Shown here piece by piece: positions 22,213-42,746 of a stretch of 64,000 bases of DNA. Every line of letters begins with the position of its first letter. The first letter of the stretch is position 1. Both the position numbers and the translations under genes were made by a program. Origin of the DNA: Salegentibacter sp. (GTDB lineage Bacteria > Bacteroidota > Bacteroidia > Flavobacteriales > Flavobacteriaceae). The notes under the pieces are model-generated. The model saw only the letters and a list, made by a program, of their open reading frames with translations, was not told the DNA's origin and searched no databases. Location: the NCBI GenBank assembly GCA_017795085.1, contig CP051246.1:3598514-3662513 (forward strand), read 5' to 3'.

Positions 22213-23070
22213 TTATTTTTCTACAACTATTTCTGCAAAAACAGGAAGATGGTCAGAAGCATATTTTTCATCTATAACTTTATGAAATTTCACATTAAAC
22301 CTATTTTCGGGATGCTTGTAAAAAACAAAATCAATAGTTTGATTAAGCTCATTTACCGGAATAGTAGGAGGACAGGTTCTACAAGTTCTTTCAAACTCAG
22401 AATCCATTAAATCAATTGTTTCCGAATCGGGGCTATCATTGAAGTCTCCTCCTATAATCAGCGGCAGTTCTTTACCATTTGAAAACTCAATAAGCTCCTT
22501 TACTTGCAAAATTCTACTTTTTGAATCTTTTCTATAATCCAGGTGTGTGCTTCCAAAAATAAGCTCAACATCTTCTATTTCAATCTCTGCTATGGCCAGC
22601 ACTCTTTTTTCGGTATTTTCATCAGGATTATTTGGCAGTTTGTGGGTTTCAGGATTGTTTAGAGGATATTTTGATAAAATTGCATTTCCATATTGCCCGT
22701 TATCGTAGTCAATGGCTTTTGCAAAATAATATTGCATATCCAGGGCTTCTGCAATCAACTCTGCCTGATTCTCTTCCCCCGACCTTTCGGTATCAAAATC
22801 AACTTCCTGCAAAGCCACCAAATCAGGTTTCTCTGCTTCTATAACTTTAACGATAGCATCAATATTAATTTTATCTTCTTCGGAAGGTGGATTGGCGTGA
22901 TGAATATTATAGGTCATAACCTTTATGGTTAATTCCTTGTTTTCTTCATGCACTTCCTGATCAGGATGATTTCCCAACTCTTCCTTTGTGCTTTTATTAT
23001 TTTCACAACTACTAAGGAAGGAAACCGCCATACAGACGGCTCCCATTAAATACATTAAATTTTTCATCAT
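22213..23070 (-). CDS. Endonuclease/exonuclease/phosphatase (EEP) family lipoprotein
   Basis: About 285 residues from the ATG at 23070; an upstream in-frame ATG (23085) would overlap susD. The N-terminus is a lipoprotein signal (MGAVCMAVSFLSSCENN). EEP-fold motifs appear in order: VMTYNIHHANP, LVALQEVDFD (metal-binding Glu), NAILSKYPL, FGSTHLDYR (catalytic His region), IIGGDFNDSPDS (Asp and Asn) and ASDHLPVFAEI (final Asp-His). The fold covers nucleases and phospho- or sphingomyelinase-type phosphatases. A secreted lipoprotein attached to a SusCD operon is more likely to act on a phosphorylated or phosphodiester substrate outside the cytoplasm than on DNA repair (inference). It is 9 bp after susD and ends at a strong terminator. 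Confidence 0.82.
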   Translation of the reverse strand: MMKNLMYLMGAVCMAVSFLSSCENNKSTKEELGNHPDQEVHEENKELTIKVMTYNIHHANPPSEEDKINIDAIVKVIEAEKPDLVALQEVDFDTERSGEENQAELIAEALDMQYYFAKAIDYDNGQYGNAILSKYPLNNPETHKLPNNPDENTEKRVLAIAEIEIEDVELIFGSTHLDYRKDSKSRILQVKELIEFSNGKELPLIIGGDFNDSPDSETIDLMDSEFERTCRTCPPTIPVNELNQTIDFVFYKHPENRFNVKFHKVIDEKYASDHLPVFAEIVVEK

Positions 23071-23078
23071 CCTTATCG

Positions 23079-24731
23079 CTACCATCCTGGATTTTGTTCA
23101 AGGTCAGGATTTCTCTCCAATTGAGGTAATGGCACAGGCCACAAGTAATGTCTTTCCGGATCAAAAACTCTGTCAGTTAGTGCAATAATAAAACCTTCTT
23201 CATCTGTTCTTAAGTTATTGGCTATCTCCGGATTGGGCAACCAGCTCACATTGGCACCTTTTACATCTTTTGCTAATAATTCTCCCTTCCTCCATCGCTT
23301 AATATCGAAATACCTCTGACCTTCCAAAGCCAATTCAACTCTACGTTCTCTTCGAATTTCTTCTCTTATATCAAGTCCATTAGCTGTTAATTCAGCCAAA
23401 TTCATATGTTTCATACCTACCCGATCTCGCAACAAATTAATGGTAACATCAAGATCTTCCTGGGTTAATTCACCCTGCTCAAACCTGGCTTCGGCATAGG
23501 TTAATAAAACTTCCGCATAACGTAATAGGTGGAAATCGTTAAAATCACGGTTATATGTGGGAACTGCACTAGGTTCTACATATTTCGTAAAGTAATAACC
23601 AGTCAGGCTCACAGCTCCTCTTCCATCAGATTGAAATTTAGGAACCTGGAAAGTATCTGGATTTTCATTATTTTCCCTTCCATCATATCTACCTCCCCAT
23701 TCCGATCCAGGCTCTAAAATAGTTTGTACCATCCTAGGGTCTCGATTTGCAAAAACATCTTCATAATTCTCAACGTTATAAAGGGGGGATTTATCAATTG
23801 GCAAGCCGTCTTCCATTAAATATGTATCTACTAAAGATTTTGTAGGGTTCCATCTTATGACCTGGTCTGGCACCTGAACTTCCCTACTCATATTATGCAT
23901 AGCTTCATCTTCTAAAGATAATCTCGCTATAATGGTTTCTTTATTATTACCATTAGCCAGTTTTCCGGCATAAGTAAATAAATCTTTATAATCGCTTTCC
24001 GGGTTTCCTGTGGAATATAGTTCATACACCCCCATATCCATCACTCTTTTTGCTGCATCTTCTGCTACATCATAGCGTTCATTATATAAAGCGATACGGG
24101 CTTTTAAAGCTAAAGCTGCCCCTTTATTCATCCGACCTAAGTTTTCACCAGTTGGTATTTCTTCCGGTAAATATTGAGCCGCATCTTCTAAATCATTTAA
24201 AACAAAATCAACAACTTCCTCTTTAGGATCACGAGGTATCATCAATTCATCAATATTAAGAGGCTCAGTAACCAGAGGCATATCTCCCCAGAATTCCGTT
24301 AAATAAAGATACATTAACCCTCTTATAACTCTTACTTCAGCAGCATACTTTTCTGCAATCATCGGATCATCCACATCAGCTTTCTGATAATTCTTTAAAA
24401 AAGAATTGGCTTGACGTATACCACGGTATTGGGTAGTCCATTCTGTATTCAAGGTATTTAAATCGGAATTATAATTCCCGCTTCCAATTCTTTGGTACAT
24501 TGTAGTTGAAGGCCAAAGGGTGTTATCACCCATGTTCTCCATATCCACAGTATTTTTAGCTTTAACATTTGCATATAAAGCATTTGCAGCAAGCCTTAAA
24601 TGTTCTTCATTTTCCCAGAAGGTTTCATCTGTTAATTCATCATTGGGAGCACGGTCTAAAAAATCCTTTTGACAAGCACCTAATAAAAAGACACTTAGAA
24701 TTAAACTATATGTAATTATTCTTTTCATCAC
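23079..24731 (-). CDS. SusD/RagB-family glycan-binding lipoprotein
   Basis: A 550-residue lipoprotein (FLLGACQKDFLDRAPND) of the outer surface. It has the SusD start (LTDETFWENEEHLRLAANALYANV), TPR helices (PEEIPTGENLGRMNKGAALALKAR), the late motif EVLLTYAEARFEQG, RRERRVELALEGQRYFDIKRW and the terminal LERNPDLEQNPGW. It caps the SusC channel and captures ligand. It follows its SusC by 4 bp. The pair's ligand cannot be read from sequence; it may serve the pectin operon, whose own SusC is only a stub, or the phosphatase that follows. Confidence 0.94.
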   Translation of the reverse strand: MMKRIITYSLILSVFLLGACQKDFLDRAPNDELTDETFWENEEHLRLAANALYANVKAKNTVDMENMGDNTLWPSTTMYQRIGSGNYNSDLNTLNTEWTTQYRGIRQANSFLKNYQKADVDDPMIAEKYAAEVRVIRGLMYLYLTEFWGDMPLVTEPLNIDELMIPRDPKEEVVDFVLNDLEDAAQYLPEEIPTGENLGRMNKGAALALKARIALYNERYDVAEDAAKRVMDMGVYELYSTGNPESDYKDLFTYAGKLANGNNKETIIARLSLEDEAMHNMSREVQVPDQVIRWNPTKSLVDTYLMEDGLPIDKSPLYNVENYEDVFANRDPRMVQTILEPGSEWGGRYDGRENNENPDTFQVPKFQSDGRGAVSLTGYYFTKYVEPSAVPTYNRDFNDFHLLRYAEVLLTYAEARFEQGELTQEDLDVTINLLRDRVGMKHMNLAELTANGLDIREEIRRERRVELALEGQRYFDIKRWRKGELLAKDVKGANVSWLPNPEIANNLRTDEEGFIIALTDRVFDPERHYLWPVPLPQLERNPDLEQNPGW

Positions 24732-24735
24732 TTTT

Positions 24736-27700
24736 TTACTTTAAATTTATGTTTAAGCCTACAGTAAATGTTTTTATTTGTGGGTAAAAGCTTCCGCTAC
24801 TTACTGGGGATTCGGGATCATAACCTTCAAAATAATCTGTAATTGTATATAAATTTTCCCCCGAGACATAAGCTCTTAAACGATCTACTCTAAACTTCTT
24901 TGTAAATTTTTCAGGAAGGGTATAACCTACCTGAACATTTTTTAACCGGATATACGAAGCGTCCTCAAGCCAATATGTAGACAATCTCTGGTTATAGGAT
25001 TGCTGATAAGTTAATCTTGGATATGAAGCATCAGTATTTTCCGGCGTCCATCGGTCTAAATGCACAGCCTGGGGCATGGCACTTTCAGAAGTTAAGGCAT
25101 GTCGTGCAGTACCTGTTAATAAACCGTTTACTTTTCCCACTCCCTGGATAAAAAGATTCAAATCAAAACCTTTGTAAGCAAAATCACCTCTAAATCCATA
25201 GGTATATCTAGGGATATGGCTTCCAATTACTTTTCTGTCATTTACAAGATCAACTTCCCCGTCGCCATTCAAATCTTTATATATCATATCTCCTGGCTGT
25301 ACAGGATCACCTTCAATGTATGGAAAATTAGGCGTATATGTATCGGTTTCTGCATCATAGGTAAAGTCTGATTCCTGGGCAATACCTTCAGCCACCAACC
25401 CATAAAAAGCATCTAAAGGCTGACCTTCCATTCGCACTCTATCATCAATCGTAGGTTCAGTACCTCCTAGGTCTGTAACTTCATTTCGAACATCTGAAAT
25501 ATTAAAATTTAAATTATACGTAAAATCATCAATATCATCTCTCCAACCCATTTCAAGTTCCCATCCTGTATTTTCCACAGATCCGGCATTTTGATAAGGA
25601 TAAGAAGGTCCACCAAATACATCGGGAATAGGTAATCTTAAAAGAATGTTATCTGTTGAATTTTCAAAATAATCTGCACTTAAATTCAAGCGGTTATCCA
25701 GAAAAGCAAGATCCAATCCAATATTCATCTTTTCTGCAGACTCCCAGGTTAATAATTCATTTCCTACAGCCGTCTGTCTGTACCCTATAGTTACATCATT
25801 TCCAATTGGCATCGTGCTTACGGGCCCTAAGACATCCATAAATGCCCAATCAGCTATTCTGTCGTTGCCCTGGGTCCCATAAGAAGCTCTTATTTTTCCG
25901 AAGTCCAGAATATCGTTTTCAAGAAATTCTTCTTTTGAAAAAACCCAGCCTAAAGAAGCTGATGAAAATAAGTTCCATCGAACATCTTTAGCAAATCTTG
26001 ATGATCCATCATATCTGAAATTAGCCTCCACTAAATATTTATCGTTGAAGGCATAGTTCACCCTTCCAAATACTGATTGTAAAGCGTTTTGAGCATTACT
26101 TCCGCTATTGCGCTGGTTTTCTGTTCCTAAATTAATATGGCCAACTGAAGTAGAGGCCACATCAGTTCTTGAAGCAGATAAGTCATCATTTATAGTTTCT
26201 TCTTGAGAAGCACCCAAAAGAGCCTGAACACTATGTACATCATTAAAGGTTCTATCAAATTCTGCTGTTCCCACAAATGTCTGATAAGTTCCCTTATAGC
26301 TACTGGTTGTTATTTGACTTGGGTTATTGATTTGCCACACCAAATTTCCGGTATCGGCATCATAATAGTTTACGGTCCTGTCAAAAACATTTCTCCGAGA
26401 GTTATATTTTACCAAACCGTATCTACCGCGAATTTTTAATCCTTCAAAAATTTTAATCGCAGCATCAACATTTCCTGTAAACTCTTCAGAAGTAAAATCA
26501 TTAGTTCCAGCTTCGTAAGCAGTAGCAACGGGATTACTTGAACCTCCTATGTACCCCCAGCCTCCGTTAGTGTTTCTAACCGGAACCAATGGTCTTACAG
26601 TTAATGCCTGATAAAGTGGTGCAGTTCCTTCTGAAGAACCAGTATAATTTCTGTCAATGTAACCAATGTTGGTATTTAATTCTATTCGGTCTAAAAGCTT
26701 TGTACTTACTTTAGCCCTAATATTATTTCGCTTGGATTCGAAATTATCCCCGACTACCAGTCCTCCTTCTTTTATCAAACCATAGGAAAGATAGTAATTG
26801 AAATCTTTCTCACCTCCATTTACACTTAAGTTATGACTTTCTTGAGGTGCATAGTCCTTGTAAACTTCATCTACCCAATTGGTATTTGCATAATAATTTG
26901 GGTCCGATCCTTCTCTGGCTATTTGTATTTCTTCTTCTGAATAGGTGGGATTCCTACCCACATTTACCTGAGATTCATTTAATAACTGCATGTATTCCGG
27001 GGAGCCCAGTTTCTCTGGCACCGCTGTAGGCCGCTGCATACCATAATAGGTATTATATGATAAGGAAGGTGCTCCTCCCTCTCCACTTTTTGTTGTTACA
27101 ACAATAACACCATTTGCACCCCGAACTCCGTAAATAGAGGAAGATGCTGCATCTTTTAGCACAGATATACTCTCAATATCACTAGGATTTAAAATATCCA
27201 AATTCCCTCCAGGAACTCCATCAATAACGACTAGAGGGGAAGAATTCCCCCAGGTTCCTATTCCGCGAATCCTGATATCACCTCCATTATTACCCGGTGC
27301 TCCGGAAGCACCGGTGACAGTAACACCAGCCATAGATCCTTGTAACCCAGAGCTAACATTTGTTATAGGGCGATTTTCAAGCGTTTCAGAATCTACCTGA
27401 CTTACAGCTCCGGTTAAGTTTGTTTTTTTCTGAGTTCCATATCCAACTACAATTACTTCGTCCAGCCCTTCAGAACTTTCTTCCATTGTAATTTCAAATT
27501 CTGATTGGTTACCTACATTTACTTCCTGGGTTTGAAACCCCAAAAAAGAAAATATCAGGATGGCGTCTTCATCATTAGATATATCTAAATCAAATTCACC
27601 ATCCATATTAGTAACAGCTCCATTGGAGGTACCCTCTTCAGAAATGGAAACTCCAGGCAAAGGCAAACCTTCCTCATCAATTACTTTACCTGTGACTTCC

Positions 27701-27774
27701 CGGTCTTGGGCAAAACCAACCCAGGTAAACAAGCTGAGCAGAATAAACAGTCCGTTTTTTATTCGTTTTGTCAT
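24736..27774 (-). CDS. SusC/RagA-family TonB-dependent transporter
   Basis: A 1012-residue outer-membrane receptor: signal peptide, CarboxypepD-like domain (EVTGKVIDEEGLPLPGVSI), the SusC junction LDEVIVVGYGTQKKTNLTGA, plug (VRGANGVIVVTTKSG) and a 22-strand barrel that ends in a hydrophobic aromatic strand (TFTVGLNINLK). There is no N-terminal STN domain, so it is unlikely to signal through a FecR anti-sigma factor. Immediately downstream is its SusD (4 bp). A 138-bp gap upstream separates it from the frameshifted DUF1080 gene and probably holds its promoter. It imports oligosaccharides or similar ligands using TonB energy. Confidence 0.95.
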   Translation of the reverse strand: MTKRIKNGLFILLSLFTWVGFAQDREVTGKVIDEEGLPLPGVSISEEGTSNGAVTNMDGEFDLDISNDEDAILIFSFLGFQTQEVNVGNQSEFEITMEESSEGLDEVIVVGYGTQKKTNLTGAVSQVDSETLENRPITNVSSGLQGSMAGVTVTGASGAPGNNGGDIRIRGIGTWGNSSPLVVIDGVPGGNLDILNPSDIESISVLKDAASSSIYGVRGANGVIVVTTKSGEGGAPSLSYNTYYGMQRPTAVPEKLGSPEYMQLLNESQVNVGRNPTYSEEEIQIAREGSDPNYYANTNWVDEVYKDYAPQESHNLSVNGGEKDFNYYLSYGLIKEGGLVVGDNFESKRNNIRAKVSTKLLDRIELNTNIGYIDRNYTGSSEGTAPLYQALTVRPLVPVRNTNGGWGYIGGSSNPVATAYEAGTNDFTSEEFTGNVDAAIKIFEGLKIRGRYGLVKYNSRRNVFDRTVNYYDADTGNLVWQINNPSQITTSSYKGTYQTFVGTAEFDRTFNDVHSVQALLGASQEETINDDLSASRTDVASTSVGHINLGTENQRNSGSNAQNALQSVFGRVNYAFNDKYLVEANFRYDGSSRFAKDVRWNLFSSASLGWVFSKEEFLENDILDFGKIRASYGTQGNDRIADWAFMDVLGPVSTMPIGNDVTIGYRQTAVGNELLTWESAEKMNIGLDLAFLDNRLNLSADYFENSTDNILLRLPIPDVFGGPSYPYQNAGSVENTGWELEMGWRDDIDDFTYNLNFNISDVRNEVTDLGGTEPTIDDRVRMEGQPLDAFYGLVAEGIAQESDFTYDAETDTYTPNFPYIEGDPVQPGDMIYKDLNGDGEVDLVNDRKVIGSHIPRYTYGFRGDFAYKGFDLNLFIQGVGKVNGLLTGTARHALTSESAMPQAVHLDRWTPENTDASYPRLTYQQSYNQRLSTYWLEDASYIRLKNVQVGYTLPEKFTKKFRVDRLRAYVSGENLYTITDYFEGYDPESPVSSGSFYPQIKTFTVGLNINLK

Positions 27775-27912: not shown

Positions 27913-28498
27913 TTACAGAAGCCGTATGTTAATATTTCTCCAATACACTTTAATTCCACCACCATCATGGATTTGCAAAGCAATTTTGCCATTGGCCTTT
28001 CCAATTTTCTCCTCTGAAAGGTTTACCATCTTTTTACCGTTTAACCATGTTTACTTTATTGTTCTTAACCCTGATTTTCATAGTATTCCATTCGCCGTAT
28101 TTTAAAACTTTTTCCTGTTTTGGGTCGGGTTTAATTAACCAACCCCGACCATACGATTCATAAATGCCGCCGGTATGTAAATCAGGCGGAGCTACTTCTA
28201 CCTGCCAGCCGGAAATTTTAGTTCCTTCAATGTCTGAACGGAAGAACACACCGCTGTTACCATCGGCCTCCTGTTTAAATTCTAATTCCAATTCAAAATT
28301 CTGGTAATTCTTATCGGTAGCTAAATAACCATATTCTGCATCCGGACCACTTTCTGAAACTAATAGCCCGTCTTCTACGTACCATTTTTCAGTACCATGA
28401 ATTTTCCATCCTTCAAGGTTTTTCCCGTTGAAGAGGCTAGTTTGACAAATACCGGAAGCGGTAGTTAAAAACAGGGAAAATGCAAGTAAAACTTTCAT
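27913..28498 (-). pseudogene. DUF1080 (3-keto-disaccharide hydrolase fold) protein, frameshifted
   Basis: The intact upstream part has 154 codons: a signal peptide (LLAFSLFLTTASGICQ), SLFNGKNLEGWKIHG, FKQEADGNSGVFFRSD and YGEWNTMKIRVKNNKV. It then falls out of frame near 28050-28055, where GTAAACATGG carries one base more than the expected GTAACATGG. In the next frame the family's C-terminus continues perfectly: WLNGKKMVNLSEEKIGKANG and IALQIHDGGGIKVYWRN, to a stop at 27913. The whole would be about 194 residues. A recent single-base insertion or an assembly error explains this. It lies 1 bp after an intact DUF1080 paralogue. The DUF1080 family includes the 3-keto-glycoside hydrolases and lyases described from B. 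thetaiotaomicron. Confidence 0.85.
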
Positions 28499-28499
28499 C

Positions 28500-29261
28500 T
28501 TAAAGTTTCTTGATTTTAATATTTCTAAACCAGGTATAGGTGCCGTGATCCTGAAGACCTATTAGCCCAGATTTAGCTTTTCCGTAATCAGGAAAATCTT
28601 TCCATTTTCCTTCATTTTTACGCTTTTCCCATTCTTCCGTCCAGGGTTCAAATTCTACTGTTTTCTTATCATTAAGCCAATAGGTAACTTTATCTTTTGT
28701 GAATCTAATTCGAGTAGAATTCCATTCTCCCACCTCTTTTAAATCATCTTCAGCATAATCCGGATCATACATACCATAATCGGCACCTATAGACTGCCAG
28801 GGTTCTAATTCATGGGGGAATCCTTGCTGATCAATGATTTGATATTCCGGGGCTGCGAAATAAGGGGAGTCATATTCTTCATCCTCTATTACGTGGTAAA
28901 AAACACCGCTATTTCCTTCGGAAGAAATTTTCCATTCCAGGTACAGTTCAAATTCATCAAATTCTTCCTCGCCATACACTATATCACCTCCAATGTCACC
29001 CCCTTCGCCAAGAGATTTCAGGGTCCCTTCTTCAATTATCCAGCCTTCAGGTAAGCTCTCGGCATCCTTTTCGTTATAGGCTCGCCAGCCATCGGCATTT
29101 TCCCCGTCGAATAAATATTGCCAGCCATCTTCTTCCTGAGCTGTAGTTCCAGCAACATTTTCAGAAGATTTATCAGTTTCTTCTTTTTCTGAATTTTGAT
29201 TTCCGTTCTTACAGGCCATTAAGCTGGCAACAGTAAATAGGCCTACTATTAGTTTTTTCAT
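28500..29261 (-). CDS. DUF1080 (3-keto-disaccharide hydrolase fold) lipoprotein
   Basis: A 253-residue lipoprotein (VASLMACKNGN) with one concanavalin-like DUF1080 domain: WQYLFDGENADGWRAYNEK, LYLEWKISSEGNSGVFYHV, YQIIDQQGFPH, GEWNSTRIRFTKDKVTYWLN and the final LQDHGTYTWFRNIKIK. DUF1080 proteins act on 3-keto sugars made by a Gfo/Idh/MocA-type glycoside 3-oxidoreductase, cleaving the glycosidic bond by elimination or hydrolysis. That oxidoreductase type is encoded directly upstream (16 bp). Both are exported, so the pathway would run in the periplasm. The specific residues needed for activity cannot be checked by eye. Confidence 0.82.
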   Translation of the reverse strand: MKKLIVGLFTVASLMACKNGNQNSEKEETDKSSENVAGTTAQEEDGWQYLFDGENADGWRAYNEKDAESLPEGWIIEEGTLKSLGEGGDIGGDIVYGEEEFDEFELYLEWKISSEGNSGVFYHVIEDEEYDSPYFAAPEYQIIDQQGFPHELEPWQSIGADYGMYDPDYAEDDLKEVGEWNSTRIRFTKDKVTYWLNDKKTVEFEPWTEEWEKRKNEGKWKDFPDYGKAKSGLIGLQDHGTYTWFRNIKIKKL

Positions 29262-29277: not shown

Positions 29278-30624
29278 TTAGACTATTTTCATCGCTTTTG
29301 GATCCCACTCAATAAATTCATTCTTTCTATAGCTTTCATTACATAACAGTGCCGGGGCAGCAGCCCTAAAGCCAAATACCGGATCTTCTACCACGGTTCC
29401 TCCTGTTCTAATGGCATGGAAGAAATTTGCAAAATGATCGTAGTGAGCTCCTTTGTATCCTTTTTCTGCTTCAAAGAATGTATCGGAGGGAGGAAGAATT
29501 TTTTTGCGATCGCGACGAGACTTATTCTCTTCCGAAGCTTTCTCAGCTAAAAACGGGTCGTCATTTTCGCCAGCGCTATTCTGCTTTAACAACACATCGT
29601 CCCAAGTCACATCCATTGAACCTTTACTCCCCACAATTTTTAGATAAGTGCTGCCACTGGTGCCATCGACAAAATTGCAACGTAGCGAGAGGTTAAATGC
29701 CGGATGAGATTCGGTATCGGGATAATCGAACATCCCAAGTAACACATCGGGAACCTCGCGACCGTCTTCCCAATACCTAAGCCCCCCTGTGGAAGCAATT
29801 TTATTGGGACCCTTAGAGCTGGTAATGAAATGGAGACTGGAGAAAAGATGCACAAATAAATCTCCAGACATCCCGGTTCCGTAATCGGTATAATTCCGCC
29901 ATCTAAAAAAACGTTTTTCATCAAAAGGTCTTTTTTCTGCGGGTTGGATAAACTTTTTCCAATCTATAGTTTCTGGGGAGGCATCTTCGGGAATTGGATA
30001 CTGCCAGGCGCCAAGGGGCGAATTACGAGCCCAAAAACCTTCTGCATAATTTATTTCTCCTATCGCACCTGCCTCCAGTAATTGTTTCGCTTTCTCATTA
30101 CCAAGCGAGGATAAGCCCTGGCTACCTACCATATAAACTTTTCCAGATTTCTTCCAGGTATCTATAATGTTCTGACCTTCTTCAACAGAGTGGATCATTG
30201 GTTTTTCACAATACACATGTTTTCCTGCTTTAAGTGCATCGATACTTATTTGTTTGTGCCAATGATCGGGGGTGCCAATTATTACCGCATCAATATCATC
30301 CCGCTTTAGGATGTCCTTATAATCTTTGGTAAGATAAATGTCGCTGCCCCATCGCGCTTTTGCTTCCTCTAAACGACCATCATATAAATCGCAAACAGCC
30401 AGCATATTAATATTTTCGTGCTTCAGGGCGGTTTTGGCATCAGCCACACCCATTCCTCCCGCACCGATTAAGGCAATTCCAAGAGGATCATTCTTTGATT
30501 TGTTTTCGTTTCTTTTCAGAAAGTGTAGAGGTTTTGTCTCCGAGGCAAAAACCGAAGGAATTATTGCAGCAGTTGCTCCTGCCACTCCCAATTTTTTGAG
30601 AAAAGATCGGCGGTTATTCTCCAT
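29278..30624 (-). CDS. Tat-exported Gfo/Idh/MocA-family oxidoreductase
   Basis: A 448-residue protein beginning with a twin-arginine signal (NRRSFLKKLGVAGATAAIIPSVFA), so it is exported folded with its nicotinamide cofactor. The Rossmann motif is GIALIGAGGMGVADAKTAL; the second hallmark is VIIGTPDHWHKQISIDALKAGKHVYCEKPM, with the EKP catalytic Lys. The C-terminal domain includes GDLFVHLFSSLHFITSSKGP and ends FRAAAPALLCNESY. Members paired with DUF1080 oxidise the C3 hydroxyl of glycosides. The neighbours (two DUF1080 genes, one frameshifted) fit a 3-keto-glycoside route for breaking glycosidic bonds like the BT2156-BT2160 type locus (known from B. thetaiotaomicron; applied here by inference). 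Confidence 0.88.
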   Translation of the reverse strand: MENNRRSFLKKLGVAGATAAIIPSVFASETKPLHFLKRNENKSKNDPLGIALIGAGGMGVADAKTALKHENINMLAVCDLYDGRLEEAKARWGSDIYLTKDYKDILKRDDIDAVIIGTPDHWHKQISIDALKAGKHVYCEKPMIHSVEEGQNIIDTWKKSGKVYMVGSQGLSSLGNEKAKQLLEAGAIGEINYAEGFWARNSPLGAWQYPIPEDASPETIDWKKFIQPAEKRPFDEKRFFRWRNYTDYGTGMSGDLFVHLFSSLHFITSSKGPNKIASTGGLRYWEDGREVPDVLLGMFDYPDTESHPAFNLSLRCNFVDGTSGSTYLKIVGSKGSMDVTWDDVLLKQNSAGENDDPFLAEKASEENKSRRDRKKILPPSDTFFEAEKGYKGAHYDHFANFFHAIRTGGTVVEDPVFGFRAAAPALLCNESYRKNEFIEWDPKAMKIV

Positions 30625-30723
30625 AGTAATTAGATAGATTATTAAATTAACTGCGTAAATCTAATTACCGGGGATGTAGTATTTGGGGTAATAAATGGGG
30701 TAAAAAACTAAATAAATTGAGAT

Positions 30724-32958
30724 TTATTTAACTAATTTCAGAAACTCCCGATCAATTGTTTCATTGTAGTAACTTTCGTAAAGTTTTTTATAGTTTTCAA
30801 CTACTTTCTTTGCAGAACCATATTTACCATCTCGTAATAAACAAGAAACTTTTTTCTTTACAGCAGTTTCAAAAAGTGGATCTACCGCTAAAATAGCTTC
30901 TATAATTTCCAGTTTTTCACTATTGTTCAGCAATTCGTTTTCAAGAAATGGCGTCAATAAATCTAAAACCCGTGAATTGTATTCAGATTTTATAGCATCA
31001 AGCCACTCTTCCTCAACTTGAGGCAATAAGGCGCCCCTGGAAACCACTCGTGCAAAATCAGTAACTTCAGTTTCAGAAAGCGAGGCCTTTTTAGACGCTA
31101 AAAAATCAGGAAGAATGGTATCCAAACTGAATACATCTATGCTGGCCGATTCCGAGATTTGAAGTTGCCATTTTTTATCTTCAAAAATAATTTCTGCGGA
31201 AACCTGCTCATTAAAGATTTTTCTAATTTCCTTGATTTGAGTACTTCTATTGTTTTTCTTGTTTTTGGGGGTAAATCCCGGCCAGAGAATATCACTAAGC
31301 TTTTTGGAAGTTATTCCCCCATCTCTTATTGTAAACAGCAAAATCAAAATGAGTAACTCCCTCCTTCTAGGAGAAAATTTATACGTAATATCCTCACCGT
31401 TATGGTTCCAAACCTTAAAACCGTTTAAAACCGTAATACTGTTCCTGCTAAAGTCTTTTTGAAAAACAGGTGCGGATTTCTCAGAAGCTTTTGCCTTTAA
31501 CTGCGGATTTCTTTTTTTAGTAAAATAAAATATGCCTATCCCAAAAAGCCCCAAACCAAGTGCAAACACCCACCAATTGCCCGGAGCTAGAAAACCACTG
31601 TCTTCTTTATTTTCCTTTTCCAGATAAACATTTTCAATTTCTTCATCGCTTAAAGCACGGTCCCAAATTTTGAGCTTACTCATCGCACCCGAATAATATT
31701 GTCCCCATAAGTTTGTACCAATAAGCAAAGCGTGATCGGTTTGCCTGATATCTGATGCGGGGATTTCTTCTATAAGGTTGCCGTTAAGATAGAAATAGAG
31801 TTTTTGCCGCGGAACATATACGAAACCCACATGGTTCCATTTTTCTTTTTCAATTATGCTTTCTGAAGTGGCGTGGTCTTCAATTCCCGTAGCCGTAAAT
31901 TGTAACCTTCCGTTATAAATTTTTGCAGAAAAAGCTTCTCCTTTGCCTACCAGACTAAGGCTTCCGTCTACTTCATCGGGTTTTACCCAGGCCGTGATAC
32001 TTATTTCTTCTAATTTATTTTCCTCTTCGCTTCTAATATCGATATATGAGGAACTACCGTTAAAATAAGCCACTTCATCTCTTTCAATATCCTTAATGAA
32101 TTCTACATCGGTGGCTGTAGATTTGCTCTCGGGATTAGCCAAATTGGAAAAACCATCCTTTAAAGGCAAAGAATAACTTAGCTCTTCATCAAGTTCATAT
32201 TTTATAGCCCTAAAATTTTTTGGCCCTGAAATCTTGGTATTTTTATCGGTAAAATTGTAGATGTCGGGTGAAAACATATAGCCTCTTTTTTGAGGAGAAA
32301 GGGTAGAATCGCTGGTCCTGAAAACCCCGCAGGTTTCAAGATGAGGGAATTCTTTCCAGCTTATTTTTCGCAATTCTTCCCCATTGTATGTTACCCTGGC
32401 CTTATAAATTGGCTTTTTACAGTACTGCGATTTTAAATAGGGAATATCATCAATAAATGGCGAACCAATCACATCGGGCACAATTCCTCTCTCATAAAGC
32501 AAATGATCAAAAAAATCATCAATTTCCTTTTTACTCTTGAGGCTATCGGCAGTAATTAGGTTATAATCCTTACAAATACTATTTGACGAAAGGAAAACTC
32601 TGTCAGGCTTTAGATAATTGAACTGACTTTCACTAAGATGATAAGCTTGTATTTCTTCAGAGTTTTCAGAAAGATTATTGGAAATTTTAAGGGAGTCAGG
32701 AAAAAATTCCTTTGCCACCTTTTCTTTTCCCCCGATAAATAAGATTTTCTGGTTATTTATTAATTGCTGCCGGAAACTTTCTTTTGCAGTATCTGAACTC
32801 GCTAAAGAATCCAGGTAAAAGGCATTATATCCCTGTTGAAAATCTGAAATTAAATTGGGCCTCCCAGACTGCAAAACCCATAAAGAATCGCGTGATTTGT
32901 TTTGTCCTACACCACCTATACTCCATAAAGCAAATAGTAAGATGAAGAGATTCTTCAT
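30724..32958 (-). CDS. Membrane-spanning one-component regulator: periplasmic LamG sensor, TM helix, cytoplasmic winged-helix plus BTAD (SARP-like)
   Basis: A 744-residue protein with a signal peptide (LFALWSIGGVGQ). Residues about 25-285 are an unrecognised periplasmic domain. Residues about 296-440 are a LamG/concanavalin domain (VAYFNGSSSYIDIRSEEENK, ISITAWVKPDEVDGSLSLVG, LYFYLNGNLIEEIP, MSKLKIWDRALSDEEIENVY). A single transmembrane helix (about 461-480: WWVFALGLGLFGIGIFYF) is followed by a basic stop-transfer. Residues about 506-609 look like a winged helix (VLNGFKVWNHNGEDITY, FSPRRRELLILILL, LSDILWPGFTPKNKKNN), and about 612-742 a BTAD helical domain (IDVFSLDTILPDFL, AILAVDPLFETAVKKKV). 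The layout puts ligand binding outside and DNA binding inside without phosphotransfer. It is downstream of GDPD and probably regulates that PUL or the neighbouring keto-sugar genes. The winged-helix/BTAD assignment is by pattern and should be confirmed. Confidence 0.72.
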   Translation of the reverse strand: MKNLFILLFALWSIGGVGQNKSRDSLWVLQSGRPNLISDFQQGYNAFYLDSLASSDTAKESFRQQLINNQKILFIGGKEKVAKEFFPDSLKISNNLSENSEEIQAYHLSESQFNYLKPDRVFLSSNSICKDYNLITADSLKSKKEIDDFFDHLLYERGIVPDVIGSPFIDDIPYLKSQYCKKPIYKARVTYNGEELRKISWKEFPHLETCGVFRTSDSTLSPQKRGYMFSPDIYNFTDKNTKISGPKNFRAIKYELDEELSYSLPLKDGFSNLANPESKSTATDVEFIKDIERDEVAYFNGSSSYIDIRSEEENKLEEISITAWVKPDEVDGSLSLVGKGEAFSAKIYNGRLQFTATGIEDHATSESIIEKEKWNHVGFVYVPRQKLYFYLNGNLIEEIPASDIRQTDHALLIGTNLWGQYYSGAMSKLKIWDRALSDEEIENVYLEKENKEDSGFLAPGNWWVFALGLGLFGIGIFYFTKKRNPQLKAKASEKSAPVFQKDFSRNSITVLNGFKVWNHNGEDITYKFSPRRRELLILILLFTIRDGGITSKKLSDILWPGFTPKNKKNNRSTQIKEIRKIFNEQVSAEIIFEDKKWQLQISESASIDVFSLDTILPDFLASKKASLSETEVTDFARVVSRGALLPQVEEEWLDAIKSEYNSRVLDLLTPFLENELLNNSEKLEIIEAILAVDPLFETAVKKKVSCLLRDGKYGSAKKVVENYKKLYESYYNETIDREFLKLVK

Positions 32959-33087: not shown

Positions 33088-34002
33088 TTACAATGCTTTA
33101 ATTACACGTTCGGGAAAATCGGTAATAATGCCATCAACCTCCAACTCAACCATTCTTTTAATATCGCTTTTCCGGTTAACTGTCCAGGGAATTAATTTCA
33201 TTTCCTTGTTTTTAACCGAATCTACAAAAGCTTTATTTTTCACAAGTTTGAAGTTAGGATTATAATTATCGGGATGAAAATCCAGTTTTTCCAGGTTTTT
33301 TTCAATGCCTTCATTTGAGACAAGATATCCCAATTCTACTTCGGGATATTTTTCATTTGCAATATTCAGGATGTTTACATCAAAAGACTGAAGGTTAAAA
33401 GGCACCTCATATTCTTCCATAACCTCCATTACCAAATCGACAACCACTTCAGGTTTCGGCTGGTATTTTTCGTAATTATTTTCAGAAGATTTTATTTCAA
33501 TATTATACTTTACCGCCTCCAGTTCTTTTTCAGCAATATAATTTTCAACCGAATCAACTACTTCGCTCAAAAGTGGTTTATAGGTTTTTTGTTTCTTTTG
33601 GTCTGGAAAGAGTTTATTTCCTTTTGAACCTGCATCAAAAGCCCGTATGCTGTCATACTCCATCTCGTAAAAATTATAGCTTTTTTGTCTTTCTTCAGAA
33701 ATACTATCTCCTTCGGGAGTTAGCATATATAAGTTGTGCATATACGGCTCGTGGGACACCACTACCTTTTTATCTTTTGAAATCACCACGTCCAGCTCCA
33801 GGACATCAGCGCCTTTTTTTACCGCATTTATAAATGCAGGCAATGAATTTTCCGGGAAATTACCGCGATCGCCCCGGTGGCCCTGCACTTCAACCTGATT
33901 GAAAGCTTCCATATTCGCATCAGGTTCATTTTTTTCTGAAGTTTCATTTTTACAGGCTGTAAGCATTAAAACAGCAAACACTAAAATTTGAATTATTTTC
34001 AT
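33088..34002 (-). CDS. Glycerophosphodiester phosphodiesterase (GDPD) family lipoprotein
   Basis: About 304 residues from the ATG at 34002, preferred over the upstream in-frame ATG at 34059 because it gives a lipoprotein signal (ILVFAVLMLTACKNE) and because a terminator hairpin overlaps the upstream alternative. GDPD motifs: QGHRGDRGNFPENSLPAF (catalytic His, then Glu-Asn), ADVLELDVVISKDKKVVVSHEP (metal-binding Glu-Asp and second His), KYNIEIKSSE, and the final IPWTVNRKSDIKRM and DGIITDFPERV. The family hydrolyses glycerophosphodiesters to glycerol-3-phosphate and an alcohol. A secreted member next to a calcineurin-type phosphoesterase and a SusCD pair suggests use of phosphodiester-containing ligands. 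It is separated from the upstream phosphoesterase by a terminator, so it may have its own promoter. Confidence 0.9.
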   Translation of the reverse strand: MKIIQILVFAVLMLTACKNETSEKNEPDANMEAFNQVEVQGHRGDRGNFPENSLPAFINAVKKGADVLELDVVISKDKKVVVSHEPYMHNLYMLTPEGDSISEERQKSYNFYEMEYDSIRAFDAGSKGNKLFPDQKKQKTYKPLLSEVVDSVENYIAEKELEAVKYNIEIKSSENNYEKYQPKPEVVVDLVMEVMEEYEVPFNLQSFDVNILNIANEKYPEVELGYLVSNEGIEKNLEKLDFHPDNYNPNFKLVKNKAFVDSVKNKEMKLIPWTVNRKSDIKRMVELEVDGIITDFPERVIKAL

Positions 34003-34014
34003 TTTTAAAATTTT

Positions 34015-34056
34015 AAAAAAGCCCACCCAAATAACAAAGAGAACAAGGCGGGCTTT
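34015..34056 (-). terminator. Intrinsic terminator between the phosphoesterase and GDPD genes
   Basis: On the minus strand AAAGCCCGCC (34056-34047) pairs with GGTGGGCTTT (one G-T wobble) and runs into TTTTTT. It lies 46 bp after the phosphoesterase stop and closes the sigma-controlled SusCD transcript. Confidence 0.8.
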
Positions 34057-34101
34057 CACAAACTAAACACAAATTATCCCAAATCAGTGGGGTTTCAGAA
34101 A

Positions 34102-35676
34102 TTATTTTGCCGGTTCTTCCAGCCTATAAGAAGTTTCTGCGGTATGGGTTTTCCCGAACATATCGATAGCTTTTATTTCAATGCTGTGTTCCCCGACATC
34201 AAGTTTATACGGGATATTCCCTCGCCATAAATGTTGGCTTTTTATAGGGTTTGATGACCTCCTGCCGGGCATAAGTTCATCTGTTGCGTCCCATTCGTAA
34301 ACCAGCTCTGCATAAGAAGGATCTGGCGCTTCTATATAGCTCATTTCTTTCCATTCACCATTATCAATTCGATATAAAACTTCATTTCCTTCGGCCCCCA
34401 TAAAGAAATTCACGAAAATCCCCGCCTGGGTTCTTCGGTTATTGGCCACCACTTTAGGTGCGAAGACCTGCATTTGGTAATCTTTGGGTTTTCCGGCGAC
34501 TTTATAGTCTATGTCATACTGGTTTCCGTTGAAATTGATAAAAGCATACCCTTTTGGGGTGCCGTCCCTCATAGTTGAAATCGGGATCCCTTCTTCATCA
34601 AGTTTCCCCGAATACCAATCACCTGAGGTAGTACCAACATTATAATGGTGATGTGGTTCTTTGCCTTTCCAACCATCTTCGGTTGTAAAGAAATCTTGTT
34701 TCTGAATGTGGGTATGTGCAGAAAGGGATAAGGTATTCGGAAAATCTTTTAGTAAGTTAAATAAAGCCTGTCGGTCTTCATCTATAAAAGCATCGCCATT
34801 TGGTTCGCTTAATGGGATATGAAAAGCCAAAACGATAAGATGGTCTTTCGGTACAAGTTCCAAATCGTTTTTAATAAACTGGAGCTGGTCTTTCCTAAAG
34901 CCGCCCCAGTATCCTTTATCATCCCGCGGATCGGGATAAATGACATCATCCAAAACTATAAAATGGACTTTCCCGTAATTAAAGGCATAGTTGGCCGGGC
35001 CAAAATGGGCTTCAAAGGTTTCATCAGACAATTCATCGGTCTCTGCATCAAAGTTAAGGTCGTGGTTCCCCAGGAGGTTGTACCAGGGAATTCCCACTCT
35101 TTTTACTGCATTGATATACGGGTTGAACAAATCAAGGTCATTGCCCACTAAATCTCCTAAACTGAGGCCGAAGGAAACATTTTTGATGCCTTCAACTTCA
35201 GCAACAATTCCCTTTGCAAAATAATCAACTTCTTGTTGGGTGTAAGGCTGCGGATCTCCAAAAATAAGGGCCGTGAATGCTTCATTTTCTTCAGAAGAAG
35301 TCAGACCAAAATCCACCGATTTCGGAAGTTTCCCGGTAGGGACAACTCCTTTAAATTCTGATTCAGGAGAGCCTTCTGGTTTATGAATATAGAAAAACTG
35401 AGGTAAATTATCCTCATTCTTCCCAATACTATACCCGGAAGGTTTTATGACTGAAATAATGTTATCCTGCCCAATAGGCAGTTCATATTTTCCGGCGGCA
35501 TTGGTAAGTACCACTTCCTGCCCATTGGTTACCGCAACTTGGGGGATTCCTTTTTCCCTACGGTCTTTTTTACCATTTTGGTTAATGTCTTCAAACACGT
35601 AGCCTTTAACTGACGATTGTGCAGATAAGAATATTGAAAACAATATAACACTACCTGTAATAATATATTTTCTCAT
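34102..35676 (-). CDS. Secreted calcineurin-like metallophosphoesterase with N- and C-terminal beta domains
   Basis: A 524-residue secreted protein (signal peptide ILFSIFLSAQ). An N-terminal SdrD/MetallophosN-type beta-sandwich (residues about 25-115: GYVFEDINQNGKKDRREKGI) precedes the metallophosphoesterase domain. Its metal motifs run FGDPQPYTQQE (about 137), LSLGDLVGNDLD, LLGNHDLNFD, VLAFHIPLSEP and LSAHTHIQKQDF, so the Asp, Asn and His ligands are complete. The C-terminal about 150 residues form a MetallophosC-type beta domain. The family removes phosphate from monoesters or cleaves phosphodiesters; the substrate is unknown. It is 99 bp after susD and precedes a terminator, making it the last gene of the ECF-sigma controlled operon. 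Confidence 0.88.
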   Translation of the reverse strand: MRKYIITGSVILFSIFLSAQSSVKGYVFEDINQNGKKDRREKGIPQVAVTNGQEVVLTNAAGKYELPIGQDNIISVIKPSGYSIGKNEDNLPQFFYIHKPEGSPESEFKGVVPTGKLPKSVDFGLTSSEENEAFTALIFGDPQPYTQQEVDYFAKGIVAEVEGIKNVSFGLSLGDLVGNDLDLFNPYINAVKRVGIPWYNLLGNHDLNFDAETDELSDETFEAHFGPANYAFNYGKVHFIVLDDVIYPDPRDDKGYWGGFRKDQLQFIKNDLELVPKDHLIVLAFHIPLSEPNGDAFIDEDRQALFNLLKDFPNTLSLSAHTHIQKQDFFTTEDGWKGKEPHHHYNVGTTSGDWYSGKLDEEGIPISTMRDGTPKGYAFINFNGNQYDIDYKVAGKPKDYQMQVFAPKVVANNRRTQAGIFVNFFMGAEGNEVLYRIDNGEWKEMSYIEAPDPSYAELVYEWDATDELMPGRRSSNPIKSQHLWRGNIPYKLDVGEHSIEIKAIDMFGKTHTAETSYRLEEPAK

Positions 35677-35775
35677 TTTTTAAGTTTAGTTTGACGCAAA
35701 TTGCATATTCAAATTTTTATTATTTCCCTGGTCTTCCAATTTTGATTGTCCAGTAAATTTTGTATGACTTTTTTA

Positions 35776-37551
35776 TTACCAACCGGGATTCTGTTCTAAT
35801 TGTGGATTCAATACAAGTTGGTCTGAAGGAATGGGCCATAGATAGTAATGTTCCGGAAATTCAGCAGGTGGTTGACCATAATAATCTATGTATCCTTCAC
35901 TTTCTCCGTTCAGAATAGGAACATTGTTCACCTCAGATCGCTTAATCCATCTACCAAGTTTCCGTTCTGTAACATAATCCATTCTTTTCCACCTTCTAAG
36001 ATCATCAGGTCTATATCCTTCACCCATTAATTCAATAGCCCTTTCTCTTCTGATTTCCCATAAAACAGGATCAACGGTAGCGTCGCGGGTAGGATCATCA
36101 GGAATGTTGCCCACGTCCAGGCTAGCGACATGCCCACGTTCTCGTAGCCTATTAATGGTTTGATCGGCGATACTTTGGTCAAATTCCCCCAATTCAAATT
36201 TAGCTTCTGCATAGTTTACCAATACTTCACCCATTCTGAATATCGGGGCATCGGCTATATCTACCCAATTAACACCATTTAATATCACGTTGTAATTTTT
36301 CCAGTAGTAATAACCCGTATAGGTAATAATAAAGGCCTGACCTCGCCTATCGTCTACAAAATGTGGTACTTGTTGCAGTACTGTTCCCTGCCAATTAAGC
36401 TGAGGGAGTGTTTTATGTGCCGGATCTGAAATTTCATTCATAAGGTCAATATATTCTCTATGAATTGGTTCTTCGGTAAAGGACCAGTCATTACTGGTTG
36501 AGTTAGGAGTGTTTACGCTATAAGGAGGGGTTACCGTGTAATAAAAACGTCTGTCCCTATTGCGAAACTCTGTATAGGGGCTTTTATCTCCTTCAAAAAG
36601 AGGACTGGTCCATCTTGTTTGCCCATCCTTCATAAGATACATGTCTGCGGCTTTTTTTGTTAAGTCATATCGTCCTGAGCTACTTCTGGCTCTAGTGGTT
36701 TGCCCGTGGGTATATTGGTTGGGTTCATATGGCTTAAATAAAATAATTCCTGCAACTCCTGCTAATGACTCACTGTTAAACACTTCATCGAAGTTGGGAT
36801 GCAAATCAGGAAAGGACGATATAAGCTTTTCGGATGCATCTGCACTGGCTCTTAAATAAAGCTCTTCTTCCCCGAGATTATGGTATTTTCTCCAAGTACC
36901 TTCAAAAAGTCCAAAACGAGAGATTAGCGCCCTTACAGCATGTATATCAATTGTATTGGGCCCATCTCCCTCAGGTTTGATATGCTCCTCTGCCCACTGA
37001 AGTTGTTCCAACATTGTTCTGGTGACCTCATCACGAGGAGTTCGAGGAGCATAAATTATATCCTCATCATCATCTCCTACTTTATGCTCTATCCATGGAA
37101 CAGCTCCATATTTTTTTACAAGTTCTAAGTAATTGTATGTTCTAAAGAAATAGCCTACACTTCTCCAATGATCTATGTTTTCCTGAGTCATTCCAGAATC
37201 ATCCAGATTATCCAACATAATATTGACACGTCGAATGTTGGAATAGGGGTCGTTCCAATCCGTAGAAGAACTAGGGACTGTAATTCGTTGCCATATCCAG
37301 TCAGATTCTGCATTTGCAGCTGCCCTTAAAAACAAATCTCCATTTCGTTCTGAAGTCGGAATACTGGGAACGAATCCCAGGAAGACATCATAGAAACTCC
37401 AGGAATAGGTTAAAATATTATCATAACTGGTAAAGGTTGTGGCTTCGGTCAATTCGTCTTTAGGTTCGAGATTGAGGAATTCCTCTTGTTGGCACGAGGT
37501 GAGCAACAACAGCAAGGAAAAAAAGAAAAATTTATTTTTAAAATATTTCAT
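35776..37551 (-). CDS. SusD/RagB-family ligand-binding lipoprotein
   Basis: A 591-residue lipoprotein (SLLLLLTSCQQEEFLNLEPKD). SusD features: LTEATTFTSYDNILTYSWSF at the N-terminus, the TPR segment (YAPRTPRDEVTRTMLEQLQWA), FRMGEVLVNYAEAKFELGEF, WEIRREREAIEL-like RRERAIELMGEGYRPDDLRRW and the terminal LVLNPQLEQNPGW. It follows its SusC by 20 bp. The length is slightly above the usual 500-560. It binds the ligand handed to the transporter, presumably a phosphorylated compound given the two phosphoesterases downstream. Confidence 0.93.
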   Translation of the reverse strand: MKYFKNKFFFFSLLLLLTSCQQEEFLNLEPKDELTEATTFTSYDNILTYSWSFYDVFLGFVPSIPTSERNGDLFLRAAANAESDWIWQRITVPSSSTDWNDPYSNIRRVNIMLDNLDDSGMTQENIDHWRSVGYFFRTYNYLELVKKYGAVPWIEHKVGDDDEDIIYAPRTPRDEVTRTMLEQLQWAEEHIKPEGDGPNTIDIHAVRALISRFGLFEGTWRKYHNLGEEELYLRASADASEKLISSFPDLHPNFDEVFNSESLAGVAGIILFKPYEPNQYTHGQTTRARSSSGRYDLTKKAADMYLMKDGQTRWTSPLFEGDKSPYTEFRNRDRRFYYTVTPPYSVNTPNSTSNDWSFTEEPIHREYIDLMNEISDPAHKTLPQLNWQGTVLQQVPHFVDDRRGQAFIITYTGYYYWKNYNVILNGVNWVDIADAPIFRMGEVLVNYAEAKFELGEFDQSIADQTINRLRERGHVASLDVGNIPDDPTRDATVDPVLWEIRRERAIELMGEGYRPDDLRRWKRMDYVTERKLGRWIKRSEVNNVPILNGESEGYIDYYGQPPAEFPEHYYLWPIPSDQLVLNPQLEQNPGW

Positions 37552-37571
37552 AACCGTAATGTTCTTGTTAA

Positions 37572-41015: not shown

Positions 41016-41062
41016 TACAATTAGAGTATGGATTAATTTTTTGTAATCTTAACTTGATTAAG

Positions 41063-41089
41063 CCCATCTCTGGTTCCAGCAGAGATGGG
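41063..41089. other. Perfect inverted repeat in the fecR-susC gap
   Basis: CCCATCTCT (41063-41071) and AGAGATGGG (41081-41089) form a 9-bp perfect stem with a 9-nt loop. A T-rich run follows on the plus strand, where there is no gene to terminate; on the minus strand transcript it would be an RNA hairpin between fecR and susC. It could act as an attenuator or an mRNA-stability element that sets different levels of regulator and transporter. Confidence 0.6.
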
Positions 41090-41099
41090 TTGTTTTTGG

Positions 41100-42071: not shown

Positions 42072-42149
42072 GTCACATTTCTTGTAAGAAACACGTAGTG
42101 GGATTTTTAGTGTTAACGCTTTATTAAAGAATAGGAGATGATATTAACT

Positions 42150-42746
42150 TTAAAGAAACATTCCCACAACAATCAATGAGAATTGAAAGAAATCGAGTTG
42201 TGATTTTAACTGTTTTAGAGCCATGCTAATATGGGTTTCTACTGTTCTTATGGAAATATTCAGTTTTTCGGCAATTTCTGTATTGCTAAGATGCTCAAAC
42301 CGGCTCAGTAAAAATACTTCTTTGCTCCTGGGGGGTAATTTCTCTATTTCGCTGAAAATTTTGCTTTCAAACTCCTGATATTCGAGAGGCTTTTCTGTTG
42401 TGGAAGGGGAGGGGATATAAAGAAGAGCGTCTATATGTGTTTGATTGAATTTAAGGTCTCTAATGTAGTTGGCTATTTTGTATTTAACCGCTCTTAAAAG
42501 ATAAGCTTCCAGGTTCAGGATATGTGAATCTGAAGCTTTTTCCCAGAGGCTTATAAAAACCTCCTGAACAATGTCTTCACAAATTTTTTCTTCGGCATAT
42601 ATTCGAAAAGCGTAAGAATAGAGTCTTTTCCAATATCTGTCAAAAATCACCTCAAAAGCATCCTGTTTTCCTTTTTTTAAAAGGTTTAGGAGGTGGCTGT
42701 CTGGTAAATTAGATAAAGTCGGTTTCATTTGGCTGTAAGAAGACAA
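42150..42746 (-). CDS. ECF RNA polymerase sigma factor
   Basis: A 198-residue sigma-70 family protein of the FecI-like group typical of Bacteroidota PULs. Region 2 is at about residues 25-95 (AFEVIFDRYWKRLYSYAFRI, DIVQEVFISLWEKA) and region 4 at about 125-185 (IEKLPPRSKEVFLLSRFEHL, NTEIAEKLNISIRTVETHIS). It should direct RNA polymerase to the promoter of the downstream SusCD operon when released by the FecR protein. It is the first gene of the operon; upstream are 566 bp without genes. No promoter of adequate quality could be identified there. Confidence 0.94.
   Translation of the reverse strand: MSSYSQMKPTLSNLPDSHLLNLLKKGKQDAFEVIFDRYWKRLYSYAFRIYAEEKICEDIVQEVFISLWEKASDSHILNLEAYLLRAVKYKIANYIRDLKFNQTHIDALLYIPSPSTTEKPLEYQEFESKIFSEIEKLPPRSKEVFLLSRFEHLSNTEIAEKLNISIRTVETHISMALKQLKSQLDFFQFSLIVVGMFL

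Follow-up and report, generated by a model that had tools for sequence, protein, structure and literature searches.

In Bacteroidota, the regulation of polysaccharide utilization loci (PULs) has been described through SusR-like regulators, hybrid two-component systems (HTCS) and extracytoplasmic function (ECF) sigma/anti-sigma systems (PMC3878776). In actinobacteria, a different kind of activator is formed by the Streptomyces antibiotic regulatory proteins (SARPs), such as AfsR, ActII-ORF4, DnrI and PimR, to which EmbR of mycobacteria is close, and which join a winged helix to a BTAD domain. Their operators are heptameric direct repeats with spacers of 4-15 nt that overlap the -35 element (PMC10972967), on which at least two monomers bind cooperatively at adjacent repeats (PMC5930380). 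Here we analyse a regulator gene of Salegentibacter sp., located at 30724..32958 (-) in a stretch of 64,000 nucleotides of contig CP051246.1 (the whole stretch is called the window, and coordinates without a locus name refer to it), which encodes 744 amino acids (aa) from an ATG start according to the list of open reading frames (ORFs) and the sequence. Our results make it highly probable that the gene product is a kinase-less, one-component transmembrane activator of SARP type, which controls a neighbouring 3-keto-glycoside operon by means of tandem heptamers.

From the N- to the C-terminus the regulator is composed of a signal peptide, a beta/alpha region, a LamG domain, one transmembrane (TM) helix, a linker and a C-terminal module of 240 residues. 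The signal peptide at residues 1-19 (32902..32958 (-)) was recognised by eye and contains a helix at 2-15 in the AlphaFold2 (AF2) model. The LamG or concanavalin-like domain covers residues about 290-447 (31618..32091 (-)), with PF13385 matched at 300-441 (E 4.9e-22), and its fold is common to domain 4 of the GH43 arabinanase AbnA, pentraxins and clostridial toxin binding domains. The single TM helix was placed at residues 462-482 (31513..31575 (-)) by the AF2 model, and since acidic residues precede it while the basic flank KKRNPQLKAK comes after it, the positive-inside tendency suggests an N-out/C-in topology; the linker behind it (residues 482-502) is modelled at low confidence. The original prediction had proposed this three-part layout of LamG sensor, single TM helix and SARP-like C-terminus with no kinase, and the layout is borne out by the Pfam LamG match, the AF2 helix and the predicted fold presented below, while the Pfam scan of the protein matched no kinase domain, receiver or AraC domain. 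The ORF has a single match in its own genome of 4.73 Mb, and its homologs are mostly free of internal stops, with one TAA in the whole-chain relative L017 of genome G121.

The N-terminal periplasmic beta/alpha region at residues 20-205 (32344..32901 (-)) is modelled by AF2 as strands that alternate with helices. The N-terminal 260 residues had been called unrecognised at the outset, and the ~185 residues of this region still stand without a convincing family match after profile searches, which were negative or weak. Several orthologs of about 580-600 aa are nearly devoid of this domain, which is therefore not essential to the design of the regulator. A phosphatidylinositol-specific phospholipase C (PI-PLC) was considered as its identity: a suggestive motif was seen by eye in L010 and L048 only, hhalign of the domain to a PI-PLC gave a weak 1.8% centred on an FLxxxPxEV stretch, and a PI-PLC-X match occurred in 1 of 60 relatives and, by Pfam, not in the window regulator. 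PI-PLC chains were absent from the VIA-align rows shown for the full model, but LamG matches fill that list and the absence therefore carries no weight.

The evidence for a SARP-like C-terminus comes from its predicted structure and from its homologs. Modelled alone on the basis of 21 related sequences, the module reaches a mean pLDDT of 91.6 and is predicted to form a beta hairpin, three helices, a wing and six more helices. It divides into a predicted winged-helix DNA-binding domain at residues 507-602 (31153..31440 (-); AF2 model, Foldseek and VIA-align) and a predicted BTAD-like helical domain at residues 608-740 (30739..31137 (-); module model, Foldseek and VIA-align), and the predicted recognition helix at residues 564-585 (31204..31269 (-); AF2 models) carries R571-S572-T573. 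The Foldseek search against the PDB at E <= 1e-3 returned six chains, which are only AfsR or EmbR, with query TM-scores of 0.48-0.56, and VIA-align placed AfsR and EmbR at Z 13.8, 13.8, 13.6 and 13.2 over 226-230 residues, the next row being at 8.6. When 35 diverse homologs of the module were scanned singly against Pfam at E <= 1, the commonest families were BTAD (9 of 35, best E 4.9e-4) and Trans_reg_C (7 of 35, best E 1.5e-3). With a profile of the homologs, a winged helix of the PhoB family was also reached (E 1e-4), as was AfsR, weakly and across both domains (E 0.086). Within the limits of prediction, the fold matches to AfsR and EmbR together with the Pfam matches of the homologs thus confirm the earlier reading of the C-terminus as a SARP-type winged helix plus BTAD, and the structure comparison did not give the different fold that would have spoken against it. 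The profile search for Trans_reg_C and BTAD that had been proposed as a check finds them among the homologs, where they are the two most frequent families, and does not find them in the regulator itself.

Several observations count against this assignment. The regulator has no Trans_reg_C or BTAD match in the Pfam and NCBIfam scans, thus staying below the Pfam cut-offs, which also sets it apart from known SARPs, and the BTAD profile scan of the window's genome gave nothing above the curated cut-off. The root mean square deviation of the predicted module from AfsR and EmbR across its whole length is 6.2-6.7 A by VIA-align, and designed TPR proteins outscore the winged-helix and AfsR matches in the homolog profile search (E 1.3e-6), a ranking that is understandable because BTAD is TPR-like. 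One may thus ask if the likeness to SARPs has arisen in the modelling from a widespread arrangement of winged helix and TPR, given that the members score weakly one by one and that TPR chains fill the lower VIA ranks besides heading the profile search. We regard this as very improbable, as AfsR and EmbR align over nearly the whole module and exceed the next row by about 5 Z units, two independent Pfam models respond to the homologs, and tandem heptamer operators accompany the genes.

We infer DNA binding by the module from a putative operator behind the regulator gene. In the gap of ~100 bp between this gene and the next one, which encodes an oxidoreductase of the Gfo/Idh/MocA family (Gfo/Idh below), the minus strand of the window from 30703 to 30656 reads TTACCCC-N5-TTACCCC-N5-CTACATC and then TAGATTTA. 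The putative heptamers, recognised as repeats, lie at 30697..30703 (-), 30685..30691 (-) and 30673..30679 (-), each displaced by 12 bp from the one before and the third less conserved. The Bacteroidota -7 consensus is TAnnTTTG, and TAGATTTA at 30656..30663 (-) is a -7-like promoter element by its likeness to it. With this element at -7, heptamer 2 would come near -33 and the repeats would therefore overlap the promoter. The site thus has what characterises a SARP operator, at least two heptameric direct repeats at about one helical turn in a promoter region, with a unit of 12 bp.

The arrangement recurs among relatives. Two TACCC cores exactly 12 bp apart were found in 20 of 20 regulator-to-next-gene regions, that is, the window plus 19 loci, several of them closely related (L049 was excluded, its next gene having the opposite direction). 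A TA(A/G)(A/G)TTT or TAGATTA element follows the cores in 18 of the 20, being absent in L034 and L048, and its distance from the second core is 27 bp in 15 regions and 26 bp in 3. In a period scan of 49 regions downstream of regulators, distant subfamilies included, exact GC-rich 6-mer repeats at period 12 occurred in 31 versus 0.8 in dinucleotide shuffles, and the other periods from 7 to 30 never exceeded 5; upstream of the regulators the same scan showed no period-12 excess (1 of 34 regions). Similar repeats stand behind many distant members whose sensors are kelch repeats or double LamG. When three heptamers at a period of 11 or 12 were scored, with p taken from 100 shuffles for each region, 34 of 61 regions reached p <= 0.05. 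Closely related loci are among these sets of 20, 49 and 61, and a few genomes contribute two paralogs to them; L032 was included in the core count and excluded from the period scan, the three-heptamer test and the comparison of helix and operator below. At the genome level, the exact pattern TTACCCN6TTACCC has a single site in the window's genome, and of 15 genomes that encode a regulator of TTACCC type, 13 have an exact double site just behind it. Double sites of the TTAACCC type were seen in 4 of 18 genomes, at the regulators of G588 and G669 and once each elsewhere in G002 and G203.

The type of heptamer varies together with the recognition helix. An operator was recognised in 36 of the 61 regulator rows, in degenerate form in a few, and not in the other 25; in 36 of 36 the heptamer type matches the helix residue: R-[SG]-T goes with TTACCC (25 of 25), R-[SN]-G with TTCACCC (5 of 5) and R-[NG]-V with TTAACCC (6 of 6). 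The 25 remaining rows have T in 6, V in 18 and neither in 1. The three operator labels need 3 changes on a tree built from 60 modules, the shuffled mean being 10.4. By our own count, the next gene is co-directional in 35 of the 36 rows with a recognised operator versus 9 of the 25 without, as is expected if the site serves that gene. We consider the helix/heptamer association, read from sequence, as a pattern over few independent events rather than as proof of a code.

Against an operator of this kind, the following should be weighed. On the tree, about three label changes underlie the link of operator and helix. The V-type kelch members L157 and L159 have repeats of TTAAGG(G/T) type with period 11, and L162 has a weaker set of TTAATCC, TTAACCC and TTAATAC; from these exceptions it follows that the heptamer is not set by this residue alone. 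The period of 11 bp in L157 and L159 is the classical SARP spacing, whereas the period in the window is 12 bp. The three-heptamer test gave p > 0.05 in 27 of 61 regions, 13 LamG-type and 14 others, so that failures are not confined to kelch-type members; some of the LamG-type ones have two clear repeats only, and L155 passes through a repeat not of the operator kind. Elsewhere in the genome the exact site occurs 0-6 times per genome (30 genomes), the same as a reversed control, and 15 genomes not chosen for the regulator held 7 exact matches, again with the reversed control alike.

One may also suppose that the operator serves another factor, the regulator being a repressor or acting on distant genes or on its own promoter. 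In the parts of the SARP literature covered, no SARP-fold activator outside Actinobacteria appears, and such a view would be favoured by the 25 of 61 rows without a recognised operator, 9 of which have a co-directional next gene. We nevertheless judge it quite unlikely, as the repeats lie directly behind the regulator even in distant subfamilies with differing next genes (Gfo/Idh, sulfatase and others), the repeat type changes with the recognition helix, and upstream regions have practically no period-12 repeats. A larger regulon of the TTACCC-type regulator in its own genome was sought and rejected: allowing at most 1 mismatch gives 34 matches (33 inexact) versus 39 in the reversed control, and we therefore claim no further target genes. 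Within the window, the pattern with at most 2 mismatches is at chance level (9 versus 6.55).

Taking the regulator as a SARP-type activator tethered to the membrane, its most likely way of action is as follows. The periplasmic part, LamG plus the N-terminal domain, would bind a glycan or glycoside that is probably imported by SusCD, the best guess being the glycoside handled by the oxidation and 3-keto-cleavage enzymes of the operon. Ligand binding would rearrange the subunits across the single TM helix and bring two or three cytosolic modules together on the TTACCCC heptamers, of which the sites are seen and the occupancy is supposed; as SARP operators need at least two monomers, dimerisation outside could simply switch DNA binding inside. 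Since the sites are at the expected -33 region of the Gfo/Idh promoter, BTAD would then recruit RNA polymerase there, as its fold suggests by the example of AfsR. The output would be periplasmic C3 oxidation of the glycoside and its cleavage by DUF1080/3-keto-disaccharide hydrolases, judging from Pfam and published relatives. A variant in which a protease gains access to the TM region upon ligand binding, and the module, once released, acts as a soluble factor, seems rather unlikely: the low-confidence linker behind the TM helix and the untethered modules of the phylum (L065, and the second, soluble module gene in L163) would suit it, but no recurrent protease gene was noticed beside the regulator, though most neighbours are unclassified.

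The comparison with described membrane-bound regulators starts from SusR, because the SusR-like name has been given to a regulator beside a comparable operon. BT2160 is SusR4, a SusR paralog (PMC3878776), it regulates the B. thetaiotaomicron operon BT2156-BT2159 (PMC11879859), and it adjoins a 3-keto-glycoside operon comparable to that of the window (PMC3878776, PMC9007349), its kinship to SusR being taken from the published description. A SusR-like identity for the window regulator would thus be suggested by the same target-operon class, BT2157 being a DUF1080 3-ketotrehalose hydrolase (PMC9007349), and by the same topology, as SusR-like proteins (BT3705, BT2160) also serve PUL regulation with a periplasmic sensor, a TM helix and a C-terminal cytosolic DNA-binding part (PMC3878776). 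As comparator we used L114 of genome G517, found through GH97 genes and recognised as SusR by synteny, a membrane protein of 531 aa beside GH13, GH97, SusC and SusD genes. In this protein TPR-like repeats are combined with DUF6377 (E 2e-89) and a TM segment near 325, in contrast to beta/alpha region, LamG and SARP module here. Its hhalign probability with the window module is 0.1%, BLASTP found nothing significant between them, and DUF6377 has no Pfam match in the window regulator. SusR membership is ruled out against L114 on these grounds, which makes a SusR-like regulator extremely improbable and agrees with the initial view that the protein is distinct from the usual PUL sensors. The sites predicted for SusR consist of direct repeats whose centres are separated by 67 or 77 bp (PMC3878776). 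By eye, no SusR-like neighbour was present in 19 stretches around DUF1080 matches (family f24). Taken together with BT2160, the window suggests that Bacteroidota differ in the regulators by which they control 3-keto-glycoside operons, and that these regulators are unrelated to each other.

HTCS resemble the regulator in PUL-linked periplasmic sensing of carbohydrates through the inner membrane (PMC3878776), but differ by their histidine kinase, receiver and AraC domain, which are unmatched here. The likeness to SARPs lies in the winged helix plus BTAD, here predicted, and in tandem heptamers in the promoter region, here read from sequence alone; the difference is that the window regulator is tethered to the inner membrane, has the module at the C-terminal end of a periplasmic sensor and belongs to Bacteroidota. 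ToxR and CadC have a cytosolic winged helix-turn-helix domain at the N-terminus and a periplasmic domain at the C-terminus, and are not known to have a BTAD. They share with the regulator the union of such a DNA-binding domain, a TM helix and periplasmic input in one protein without a kinase; the order here is reversed, sensor, TM helix and then winged helix, and an N-terminal DNA-binding domain is not found.

How far such regulators extend was examined in several genome samples. Of 299 genomes sampled from the family, 24 show, among the matches listed, an alignment that extends to residue 600 or further. With the module profile at E <= 0.001, the phylum-wide sample gave 18 of 395 genomes, 4 of them only via TPR-like helices, and the class-wide sample 6 of 395, 1 of them only in this way; matches of the latter sort align near profile positions 180-235, and both counts include the window's genome. 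None of the strong matches of the class-wide sample could be assigned to a Bacteroides, as far as its genomes allow an assignment. Relatives with LamG, TM helix and module occur in Salegentibacter, Sinomicrobium, Galbibacter, Joostella, Snuella, Aestuariibaculum, Aestuariivivens, Cellulophaga, Zhouia, Splendidivirga and Labilibaculum. Among 10 distant or divergent members scanned, kelch repeats were found in 7 (L055, L057-L060, L062, L063), two LamG domains in 2 (L019, L105) and no match in L072; kelch repeats are likewise present in L020, L022 and L023. As to the survey of Bacteroidota proposed with the original prediction, the architecture indeed recurs, but LamG turns out to be only one of several sensors. 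Judged from these sequence matches, regulators with the SARP module are no isolated oddity and form a scattered class in Bacteroidota.

The phylum also has SARP modules that are not tethered (L065, L067). By eye, L067 has a receiver-type N-terminus followed by the module, L065 helical repeats and the module, and L066 the module, a TM helix and helical repeats. In L163:2849-6570, a membrane-bound regulator whose sensor has no Pfam match is followed by three TTAACCC copies and then by a gene for a soluble SARP module of 271 aa. Salegentibacter agarivorans has two regulator paralogs (L031, L032), each with its own operator and Gfo/Idh-DUF1080 genes.

Searches of open-access papers gave no description of a LamG- or kelch-linked SARP module, which is in line with the expectation that the architecture had not been described. 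The DNA module of SARPs and the logic of their operators are already known; its tethering to periplasmic sensors, the order reversed relative to ToxR and CadC, and the spread in Bacteroidota did not appear in these searches. On balance we lean, with reserve, to a broader proposal, that is, an unnamed Bacteroidota class with interchangeable sensors (LamG, double LamG, kelch), a TM helix and a SARP module that reads heptamers behind its own gene, in which the helix, by T, G or V two positions after a conserved Arg plus further residues, would set TTACCC, TTCACCC, TTAACCC and variants. There is a fair chance that the regulator type deserves naming as a class. If the proposal is true, the sequence by itself could reveal which genes are the targets of orphan PULs, and the operator and helix pattern makes them directly testable. 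Both the PUL and the SARP fields would be widened by such an additional class, whose DNA module is that of the antibiotic activators of actinobacteria, and a kinase-less transmembrane protein would stand as a case of SARP-type activation.

The predicted targets form a co-directional operon next to the regulator. It starts with the Gfo/Idh gene at 29278..30624 (-) (PF01408, E 2.7e-23), whose product has a twin-arginine leader RRSFLKK by eye, and continues with a 3-keto-disaccharide hydrolase at 28500..29261 (-) (PF06439, DUF1080; E 5.3e-45), the DUF1080 family being that of the 3-ketotrehalose hydrolase BT2157 (PMC9007349). A second PF06439 protein at 28034..28498 (-) is shortened to 154 aa, with the profile ending at 140 of 187; most relatives have ~200 aa, the frame in the window looks broken, and intact copies exist. 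Behind it, Pfam identifies a SusC-like TonB-dependent transporter at 24736..27774 (-), perhaps with its own promoter because it begins ~260 bp behind the last PF06439 gene, and a SusD-like protein at 23079..24731 (-), followed by an endonuclease/exonuclease/phosphatase-family protein at 22213..23085 (-) (PF03372, E 1.7e-27). Neighbour labels in other loci are BLAST matches to window genes, of which ten were named by Pfam and the others (sulfatases, a second SusCD) by eye. A co-directional Gfo/Idh gene is next to the regulator in the window and in 18 of the 20 loci L031-L050, the exceptions being L048, where a DUF1080 gene is next, and L049, where such genes are on the other side. It is also next in 12 of the 16 LamG-type loci L138-L153, which were called LamG-type from alignment to the window regulator through LamG and were not all scanned with Pfam; here the exceptions are L140 (DUF1080 gene next), L146 (SusC) and L147 and L153 (opposite-strand gene). 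Double-LamG members precede sulfatase genes in L155 (region of L019) and L168 (the L105 gene; sulfatase by Pfam). SusC-like genes are found within the next five same-strand ORFs in the non-LamG rows L154, L157, L159, L162 and L172, most neighbours of the non-LamG rows being left unclassified.

On the other side of the regulator, positions 33088-42746 of the window hold a second SusCD set (by eye) that has an ECF sigma/FecR pair of its own, along with genes for a metallophosphoesterase and a phosphodiesterase of the GDPD family; GDPD and metallophosphoesterase genes also lie at most 10 kb from the regulator in the Salegentibacter loci L032 and L033. A 5S rRNA gene, the end of an rRNA operon, is upstream of the regulator in 4 of 12 loci scanned (L050:174-281, L039:181-288, L037:1-77 and L044:1-73), which may be the reason why many contigs end near the regulator; it stands directly before the regulator in L050, L039 and L044, and an ORF of 595 aa lies between them in L037.

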